This document shows positions 42,508 to 44,525 of a stretch of 64,000 nucleotides of DNA, piece after piece (positions within the stretch are counted from its first letter, which is position 1; the number at the start of each line of letters is the position of its first letter). Location of the stretch: contig JAFYNL010000036.1 in the NCBI GenBank assembly GCA_017548075.1, positions 35,468 through 99,467 on the forward strand. The letters are read 5' to 3'. The notes beneath the pieces are model-generated. The model did no database searches. It worked only from the letters and a program-made list of their open reading frames with translations, and had not been told where the DNA came from. The stretch is from Bacteroidaceae bacterium. Its GTDB lineage: Bacteria > Bacteroidota > Bacteroidia > Bacteroidales > Bacteroidaceae. Position numbers and translations under genes: made by a program.

Positions 42508-44439
42508 TTACACTTCGAACACGTAGCCGAAACCTTGTCTGCTGACAATATAATTGGCATAAGGGCCGAGCTTCTTGCGGAGACGAGTGATGTGGACGTC
42601 GATTGTGCGGTCTGTTACGACGACATCTGCCCAAATGGTGTCCATAAGTTGCTGACGTGAAAGCACTTGGCCTCTATTGGAGAGAAGCAGTTGAAGCAAG
42701 TCGAACTCTGTGCGAGTAAGGCTGACTGGATTGCCGTCGATGGTGACTGACTTGCGTCCGAGATTCACTTGCAGCCCTTGAAAAGAGAGGACGCGCTTGC
42801 CCAGACGGGCTTCCACGACGTTCATCACATAGTCGCCCAGTCTTTCGCATTCGGCGATAATGTCGCTGTAGATGGAGCCAAGCGTGTATGAATATTCGTG
42901 ACTGTCCGCAGTTTCTCGGATACTTTCGGCTTTAAGCTGGTCGCGAAGGGCATTGAGTTCTCGCTCTATCTCGACAGAGGTCTCGATGGTGAGGCTGTCT
43001 CTTCGTCCGCTTACGACGACCATCATTTGCGTGAGAGCCTCGCCAGCCAACTGCATCATTTCGTGCAAATGAGTATATTGCTGAGGAATGAAGTCCTCGC
43101 GACTCTCTCTGCGATGCTGGATGAGACGGGCTATCTTGTAGCAGGAGTCACCAATGGATTCCAGTTCACCTATTTCGCGAAGCATGTTTCGAATCTTTGC
43201 CTTCGTCTCGTCGGACAGGTGTTCGTTGCTGACTTCATCAAGATAGTTGGCAATCTCAATCTCCATATTGTCCGCTATCTCCTCGTACTTTTCGATGCGC
43301 TCAAACTGTCCTTCGAACTCTTTCTTGTCCTTTTCATCGAGAAGAACTCGGGCTATTCCGAACATTCGCTGCATACGTTCTGCAAAGTGAACAATCTCTT
43401 TTTGTGCCTGAAGCACGGAGATTTCGGGAGTTGCCATCAGTCCCTTGTCGATGTACTGCAGGCGACTGACGTTCTTTTCCTGCTTCTTGTCCTTGATGAC
43501 CCACTTTACGAAGCGCTCTATCTGCGGAATGAAGCCGATGAGCAGCGAGGTGTTGATGAGATTGAAACAGGTGTGGAAGGTAGCGAGAACGACGCTCAGA
43601 TTGTTGCCTGCGAGGGAGCAGATGAAGTTGACAAACGGATGGAAGAAGCAAAGAACCCAGCAAACGCCAAAGATATTAAAGAACATGTGGGCGAAGGCTG
43701 CTCGACGGGCTTGCGTAGAGGCAGTAAGTGCTGCGAGATTCGATGTGACGGTTGTGCCGATATTCTCGCCCATCACAAGCGCGATGCCTTGATGAATGGG
43801 CATTGCACCTGAGGAACAAAGCACCATTGTAATCGCCATGACTGCTGCTGATGACTGCACACACATCGTCAGAACGCCGCCGATAAGCAGGAAGACTAAG
43901 GTCGTGACGATACTATCAGGGTCGAACGAGCTGAAGAAACCTATCACAGCTTCGTTCTCGCCAAGATTCATGTCGGCTCCTGTCTGACGCAAAGTTCCCA
44001 ATCCAAGAAAGAGGAAAGCAATGCCGAAGAAGAAGTATCCGGCTGTCTCGTGCTTCTTCTTGTAAATGAGCAACATGGCGAGAATGAACAAAGGCCACAC
44101 GAAATTGGCAATGTTGAACGATGCTTCGCCCGCCATAATCCAGGCTGTAAGCGTCGTGCCTATGTTTGCACCCATGATGATGCTGATGGCCTGCCCCAAA
44201 GTGAGCAAGGAGGCATTGACGAAGGAAACGGTCATAACCGTCGTCGCCGTTGAACTCTGTACCGCAGCCGTCACGCCCATTCCCGTCAGCATACCTGTGA
44301 AGCGGTTGGTTGTCATTCGGGCCAAGACGTGCCTCAACTTCGGTCCAGCCATCTTCTGCAACGCATCGCTCATCGTCTTCATGCCGAAGATGAGAAGCGC
44401 AAGCGAACCAAGCAGAGTGAAAACAGTTGTAATCGTCAT
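42508..44439 (-). CDS. Na/Pi cotransporter - PhoU-like - OmpR/PhoB winged-helix fusion
   Basis: A 643-residue inner-membrane protein in one uninterrupted frame. Residues 1-310 are a Na+/phosphate cotransporter with two inverted halves, each with the QSS motif (AAVQSSTATT about 59, CVQSSAAVM about 193). Residues 335-545 are PhoU-like helices (GELESIGDSCYKIARLI, AECERLGDYVMNVVEA). Residues 551-643 are a complete PhoB/OmpR-type DNA-binding domain: LTRTEFDLLQLL, VLSRQQLMDTIWAD, RTIDVHITRLRKKLG and RQGFGYVF. Ordinary relatives stop after PhoU. There is no receiver domain, so the protein may couple phosphate transport directly to transcription from the membrane (inference). It lies downstream of the CCA-enzyme gene in the same direction. 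Confidence 0.88.
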   Translation of the reverse strand: MTITTVFTLLGSLALLIFGMKTMSDALQKMAGPKLRHVLARMTTNRFTGMLTGMGVTAAVQSSTATTVMTVSFVNASLLTLGQAISIIMGANIGTTLTAWIMAGEASFNIANFVWPLFILAMLLIYKKKHETAGYFFFGIAFLFLGLGTLRQTGADMNLGENEAVIGFFSSFDPDSIVTTLVFLLIGGVLTMCVQSSAAVMAITMVLCSSGAMPIHQGIALVMGENIGTTVTSNLAALTASTQARRAAFAHMFFNIFGVCWVLCFFHPFVNFICSLAGNNLSVVLATFHTCFNLINTSLLIGFIPQIERFVKWVIKDKKQEKNVSRLQYIDKGLMATPEISVLQAQKEIVHFAERMQRMFGIARVLLDEKDKKEFEGQFERIEKYEEIADNMEIEIANYLDEVSNEHLSDETKAKIRNMLREIGELESIGDSCYKIARLIQHRRESREDFIPQQYTHLHEMMQLAGEALTQMMVVVSGRRDSLTIETSVEIERELNALRDQLKAESIRETADSHEYSYTLGSIYSDIIAECERLGDYVMNVVEARLGKRVLSFQGLQVNLGRKSVTIDGNPVSLTRTEFDLLQLLLSNRGQVLSRQQLMDTIWADVVVTDRTIDVHITRLRKKLGPYANYIVSRQGFGYVFEV

Positions 44440-44525
44440 GATAACTTACGTGTTAGATTTCGAGAGCAAAAGTACAAAGAAATCCTCAAGACTTTATAAA
44501 AAGTGAGGTTACGTTTCGGTTACAA

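Follow-up and report, generated by a model that had tools for sequence, protein, structure and literature searches.

A single reading frame in the window (as we call the whole stretch of 64,000 nucleotides that was analysed) encodes a Na/Pi cotransporter, a PhoU-like region and the DNA-binding half of the response regulator PhoB in one polypeptide, and we consider it probable that this protein is a self-regulating phosphate transporter, that is, a one-component switch which arose from a collapsed two-component system. The fusion would apparently replace a three-gene signalling pathway. A bolder reading, for now a tentative one that may well prove too strong, is that the transporter acts as its own gene's transcription factor, that the whole pathway has collapsed more than once in one family via different junctions (A, B and C/D), and that these proteins form a new class of regulator.

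Domain architecture of the fusion protein

The frame comprises 643 codons from its ATG with no internal stop, and its features are collected in Table 1. The first-pass annotation had described one frame holding a Na/Pi cotransporter, PhoU helices and a complete winged helix (wHTH); Pfam, NCBIfam and an AlphaFold2 model agree with that description, and the sequence words which it cited were all found in the 643-aa translation. Pfam places Na_Pi_cotrans (2.6e-56) and PhoU (4.3e-10) on two stretches each, and Trans_reg_C (1.4e-23) is covered over all 77 of its model positions. The NCBIfam model TIGR00704 exceeded its cut-off, and residues 547-642 cover positions 129-225 of NF053854, the model for Bacteroidetes PhoB, with 116.6 bits, a score below the cut-off of 270 set for the entire protein, as one of its halves should give. 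The C-terminus is, as these matches indicate, the effector half of PhoB without its receiver. No Response_reg domain was found in the fusion protein by Pfam at E <= 1, and the phospho-acceptor receiver of PhoB/OmpR response regulators is missing from it; nor did Pfam find a histidine kinase domain of the kind that CbrA-type transceptors carry.

Table 1. Features of the fusion gene and its promoter, in window coordinates
Feature	Position	Strand	Basis or remark
Fusion Na/Pi cotransporter - PhoU - PhoB effector domain	42508..44439	-	643 aa; ORF, Pfam, NCBIfam, AlphaFold2 model
Transporter part, residues 1-316, two Na_Pi_cotrans repeats	43492..44439	-	boundary from model helices
PhoU-like helices, residues 338-546	42802..43428	-	Pfam and model
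Two PhoU stretches	42811-43068 and 43123-43389	-	Pfam
PhoB/OmpR effector domain (wHTH), residues 547-643	42511..42801	-	Pfam, NCBIfam, model, structure matches
Recognition helix, residues 610-630, DRTIDVHITRLRKKL	42550..42612	-	model and residue alignment
Pho-box-like direct repeat TGTAACC-GAAA-CGTAACC, 11-bp period	44507..44524	-	just upstream of the fusion gene
-7 match TACTTTTG	44467..44474	-	50 bp downstream of the start of the Pho-box-like repeat

The transporter part is a predicted Na/Pi cotransporter II (PF02690, TIGR00704), whose two repeats carry the QSS motifs Q61-S62-S63 and Q195-S196-S197, unchanged across 36 aligned fusions. The AlphaFold2 model built from these 36 (mean pLDDT 78.6, pTM 0.44) has helices over residues 3-314, PhoU-like helices over 338-546 and a winged helix over 550-641, the placement of the domains being unsure because of the pTM value. 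At the junction the last PhoU helix runs to residue 546 and the first wHTH strand starts at 550, which leaves a linker of about three residues. Foldseek against the PDB ranked the PhoB effector domain highest, both free and on Pho-box DNA (1gxq, 1gxp; target TM 0.84-0.87), and also matched PhoU (1t72_G; target TM 0.84). As in NptA-type proteins, PhoU lies C-terminal of the transporter (Pfam, model, 1t72 match).

The fusion thus has the effector fold in common with PhoB (1gxp, 1gxq) and also most of its DNA-facing residues, and differs from it in being tied to a transporter and having no receiver. At the contact positions, given in E. coli numbering, W184, T194, R203 and Y223 are invariant in all 59 distinct fused wHTHs and R201 is kept in 58 of them. 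The E. coli contact R193, present in all of 34 separate PhoBs, is replaced by H in nine and by S in two of the 59; N is the usual residue at D196, and E. coli R219 is unconserved in fused wHTHs and separate PhoBs alike. The loss of DNA-contact residues, which the first-pass annotation had named as an outcome that would count against a regulator, was not seen: the contacts are mostly kept, with R193 changed in 11.

An apparent operon ancestor, probably repeated fusion and the loss of PhoR

A search for relatives with one genome per species gave 138 related loci, the best 80 of which were examined. Among these best 80, transporter and wHTH share a single frame at 37 (one ends at a contig edge), and the transporter is unfused at 43, with phoB immediately behind it in 6 of the 43. 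An artefact of assembly or strain is ruled out by these 37 other fusion loci among the best 80 of 138. Four of the fusion loci (L007, L019, L028 and L033) come from apparent isolates, judging by record titles; L033 belongs to the D31d record of Xylanibacter ruminicola. The carriers are many rumen-type Prevotella-like bacteria: a survey of the genus found a frame of >600 aa in 15 of 108 genomes, and in a survey of the order (294 genomes, 87 with a match) the fusion was found only in the window genome, the longest other frame being 327 aa. Among close pairs, the dN/dS of the wHTH was 0.00-0.15 in 14 of 15 (the fifteenth was not computable) and that of the transporter-PhoU part 0.02-0.10, values which indicate that the wHTH is under purifying selection. 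The conservation that the first-pass annotation had proposed to look for is thus present, both in the 37 other loci and in the selection acting on the wHTH.

Shortened or incomplete forms occur as well: PhoU-wHTH without the transporter (L092), a PhoU tail with the wHTH (L093), an early portion of the transporter joined to the end of PhoU (L126), and a form without part of the wHTH (L127). They suggest decay or misassembly in some genomes. Separately, a record named 'Bacillota bacterium' (L071) holds a Prevotella-like Na/Pi-PhoU protein with 61% identity and is probably a mislabelled metagenome bin.

At 23 loci, which we call the tandem class, an unfused nptA-phoU is followed on the same strand by a phoB with both receiver and effector domain, and a PhoR-like kinase ORF lies downstream of phoB in all 23, domain identity having been confirmed by domain scan for one PhoB and one PhoR. 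The nptA-phoU/phoB/phoR operon is the apparent ancestral arrangement. Unfused proteins stop a few residues past VVEARLGK, and it is there that the type-A fusions (the type of the window) continue into the PhoB effector domain, with identical spacing throughout. The simplest path would be a deletion of the transporter stop, the intergenic bases, the receiver and its linker, with phoR lost too. That a deletion had joined two neighbouring genes was the alternative offered in the first-pass annotation, and the relatives in which nptA-phoU, phoB and phoR are separate and adjacent agree with it. Its other suggestion, a membrane-tethered regulator that would read the state of transport or of PhoU and bypass the PhoR/PhoB phosphorelay, is compatible with such an origin. 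A further idea of that annotation, that separate genes in relatives would reduce the fusion to an accident, holds as far as the ancestral arrangement is concerned and fails as regards a strain-specific accident, given the 37 fused loci.

Four types of linker were distinguished: A, B (G019, G077, G097 and G106), C (G276 and G213) and D (G202 and G283). When transporter and wHTH were combined in one tree (54 of 78 rows after removal of near-duplicates), a single clade of all fusions was rejected (p-AU 0.006), as were A+B (0.009) and B+C+D (0.020), and both A+C+D (0.057) and A alone (0.065) went unrejected. The free tree divides type A into two parts although type A shares one junction; because the trees split type A in this way, the transporter half may have recombined or been exchanged. 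In a tree of the wHTH only (97 columns) a single fusion clade was not rejected (p 0.55), and the transporter tree carries a warning of long branches meeting, namely those of B and L133. Types C and D form one clade with support 100 and may represent a single fusion event. Overall, more than one fusion is likely from these comparisons.

The fate of the other phosphate genes was followed in 199 genomes of the family, each with a completeness of 90% or more apart from the window genome, with a PhoR threshold of E <= 1e-60. The wHTH model matched in 156 of the 199: 14 with a full fusion, each confirmed by reading the locus, 2 with fragments and 140 others. PhoR was found in 140 of the 140 PhoB-positive genomes without a seen fusion versus 2 of the 14 fused ones (Fisher 4e-16), the absence of a fusion in the 140 being read from frame length among the matches listed, outside which 12 of the 140 fell. 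It was found in neither of the 2 fragment genomes and in 1 of the 43 genomes without a wHTH match. A separate PhoB is likewise encoded elsewhere in the two fused genomes with PhoR, G090 and G140. PstB at 300 bits or above was seen in 4 of the 14 fused genomes (G018, G037, G077 and G097) versus 0 of 13 with operon-type PhoR, and therefore the fusion is no simple replacement for Pst.

The window genome, which is 88% complete, has three Trans_reg_C proteins, namely the fusion, a full response regulator beside a kinase (C53) and an odd one (C25). The odd protein (L003) has an N-terminal Trans_reg_C in an ORF of 237 aa in which no receiver was found. The first-pass annotation had raised the question of whether phoB and phoR exist elsewhere in this genome, and neither was found in its 88%; the search returned no PhoR-like kinase at E <= 1e-30, no PstB at 1e-60 and no PiT. 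Because of the 88% completeness, the missing PhoB, PhoR, Pst and PiT are no proof of absence. A second Na/Pi-PhoU protein of 568 aa, without a wHTH, is encoded on contig C7, and no site with fewer than 3 mismatches was found within 300 bp of it. An initial impression that PhoU is confined to the fusion gene in this genome was wrong, as the C7 paralogue has a PhoU-like half that Pfam missed.

A Pho-box-like repeat at a fixed distance from the promoter

Ahead of the fused genes lies a direct repeat, TGTAACC-GAAT-TGTAACC and close variants, with the core TGTAAC-N5-TGTAAC, whose occurrence at these genes is new here and whose 11-bp period is also that of the E. coli Pho box. Taking the best match in 250 bp, a repeat with at most one mismatch was present at 44 of 60 fused, 12 of 23 tandem and 1 of 40 other promoters, and shuffled fused promoters reached the same level in 4 of 3000 cases. 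The sequence TAnnTTTG, which we take to be the Bacteroidota -7 consensus, is matched by TACTTTTG. When up to two mismatches are allowed, the first base of the site falls 49-50 bp ahead of the -7 element in 47 of 50 promoters of type A, in 15 of 18 of the tandem class and in 1 of 26 of other transporters, counts which omit promoters without a -7 match (3 type-A, 5 tandem and 14 other). Other distances are nearly empty. The sole 'other' promoter with a site at 49-50 bp is that of L054, and in the same class L098 and L136 have phoB nearby in an arrangement that is not tandem. Since operons that encode full-length PhoB have the site at the same distance, it is most likely that the fusion took over both the binding site and the activation mode of PhoB. 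The Pho-box-like sites which the first-pass annotation had proposed to look for take the form of this conserved repeat, which sits at the fusion's own promoter at a fixed distance from -7, so that at the level of sequence a direct-repeat site lies upstream of the putative target promoter as it does for PhoB.

A canonical site at the right place was seen in 0 of 3 type-B and 0 of 2 type-D promoters. Three type-B loci without it (L094, L096 and L097) have, by eye, a variant repeat, TGTTAA/ATTAAG-N5-TGTTAC, of the same period, which in L096 and L097 lies 55 bp before the -7 element.

The combined pattern of site plus -7 element was searched in 37 chosen genomes, in which its backward control gave no match. 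It occurs exactly once, before the fused gene, in 11 of the 13 type-A genomes searched, the window genome included. Of the remaining two, G090 has one additional match, and in G280 (L006/L114 and L196) the pattern is absent at the fusion and its only match lies before an unfused Na/Pi-PhoU gene, an arrangement in which control in trans would be possible. Because of the patterns in G280 and G090, action at other genes is possible. Both type-C genomes have a match at the fused gene plus others (2 and 3 in total), one type-D genome has two matches, neither at the fused gene, and the other lacks any, no match occurs in the three type-B genomes searched, and tandem genomes have 0 to 5 each. Further phosphate transporters, PHO4/PiT (L200) and Na/Pi-PhoU (L196), are also preceded by the pattern. 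It is likewise seen before CDP-alcohol phosphatidyltransferases and pairs of small PepSY-like proteins (L186, L193, L194; L187, L188, L197), one protein of each kind having been scanned and the rest assigned by eye; these are candidate members of the phosphate regulon in the family. The position of the pattern before these further transporters and the other genes supports our reading of the repeat as a phosphate box. A wider regulon in the window genome is unsupported: the site alone has one exact match there, and the 4 further matches at one mismatch fall below the 19 of the backward control.

A proposed direct path from PhoU to DNA and its alternatives

The following course of events would account for these observations. 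A deletion of the transporter stop and the PhoB receiver in an nptA-phoU/phoB/phoR operon would have placed the PhoB effector domain directly behind the last PhoU helix, PhoR being lost too, and the product would, by its expected topology, remain in the membrane. PhoU, on the cytoplasmic side, would signal phosphate import to PhoR in the operon form, and in the fusion it would control the attached wHTH directly; because PhoR and the receiver are gone, PhoU acting on the attached wHTH is the step that remains. When phosphate, the presumed signal, is plentiful, the wHTH would be held back; when it is scarce, wHTHs would pair on TGTAAC-N5-TGTAAC, to which they presumably bind, and recruit RNA polymerase to the gene's own promoter, probably as activators rather than repressors, so that more transporter is made. 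This promoter would be the only or main target.

The sign of the effect is the point at which an alternative first presents itself. If the wHTH were a membrane-bound repressor or brake, by which the phosphate-loaded transporter restrains its own transcription or keeps its gene anchored to the membrane, the identical domains and site would suffice, and the site does adjoin the promoter. It starts, however, 49-50 bp before -7 and ends ahead of the -33 region at its usual position in promoters, as it does in operons with full-length PhoB. Activation at low phosphate is the sign to be expected, by analogy, from the position of the site and from the role of PhoB in B. fragilis, where it activates pst (PMC3547664), and a brake therefore seems unlikely to us.

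Rather less chance is given to the idea that regulation is exerted by a soluble fragment, with the wHTH either released by a protease or translated from an internal start codon, Met539, by the junction. Of 64 fused ORFs, with duplicates counted, 55 have M at residue 539, in the last PhoU helix (codon and neighbours at window 42821-42829), as against V or I in 57 of 58 readable unfused ones and M in 1 of the 58. Met539 is, however, confined to type A and is preceded by no enrichment in A (third-position A 0.14, in fused and unfused alike), and the linker of about three residues between helix and wHTH in the model offers no obvious cleavage site by eye. An accessory role, in which the fusion would serve a two-component system with an unrecognised kinase or response regulator, is very improbable: C53 encodes a kinase next to its full response regulator, C16 has a weak match to HisKA, and G090 and G140 have PhoB/PhoR besides their fusions, all of which leaves room for a partner, yet the fusion has no receiver domain and no PhoR-like kinase was found in the window genome at E <= 1e-30. 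Finally, that the gene is purely a transporter and its wHTH the passenger of a neutral or decaying deletion, as the apparently ancestral tandem genes and the shortened versions could be taken to mean, is scarcely credible against 37 other loci, a dN/dS of 0-0.15, kept DNA-facing residues and a kept site.

The reading we prefer, in which the transporter itself carries the switch, has partial counterparts elsewhere. CadC and ToxR consist of an N-terminal wHTH, one membrane helix and a periplasmic sensor, and the fusion departs from this layout in that its wHTH is C-terminal and its membrane part a multi-helix transporter. What they have in common with the proposed fusion mechanism is an OmpR-type wHTH that works in the membrane without a phosphorelay (PMC7888679, PMC6320335). 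CadC depends on a separate permease, LysP (PMC6978683), whereas in the fusion the permease carries the wHTH at its own C-terminus. The transceptors CbrA and SLC5-STAC kinases likewise unite transporter and signalling domain in one polypeptide, but their output is a histidine kinase which needs a response regulator (PMC13022988, PMC7096432), and that of the fusion is a DNA-binding domain. In NptA of S. aureus, too, transporter and PhoU form one chain. Its PhoU domain conveys the phosphate state and influences the expression of nptA, and in alkaline medium it is said to repress PhoR (PMC13170248); NptA signals to a two-component PhoR, whereas in the fusion the PhoB effector domain follows PhoU. 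In E. coli, PhoU connects the transporter with PhoR (PMC6978683). Each half of the idea is therefore already known, in transceptors with a kinase (CbrA) and in membrane one-component regulators (CadC, ToxR). In full-text searches of open-licence papers, a coverage that makes for weak evidence, we found neither a description of a transporter-PhoU-wHTH protein nor a transporter with its own DNA-binding domain.

Taken together, if the proposed mechanism is true, these bacteria offer a natural experiment on phosphate-import signalling, in which PhoU and the PhoB effector operate without kinase, phosphoryl group or receiver. It would mean that the conformation of PhoU alone can carry the signal, something that is hard to isolate in the usual PhoU-PhoR-PhoB systems. 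Since the switch would be one protein that apparently has one target promoter, it could moreover be transferred to laboratory strains as a phosphate sensor. In this family, the transition from a two-component to a one-component system, with its operon ancestor, its common promoter site and the loss of its kinase, would then be visible in living relatives.
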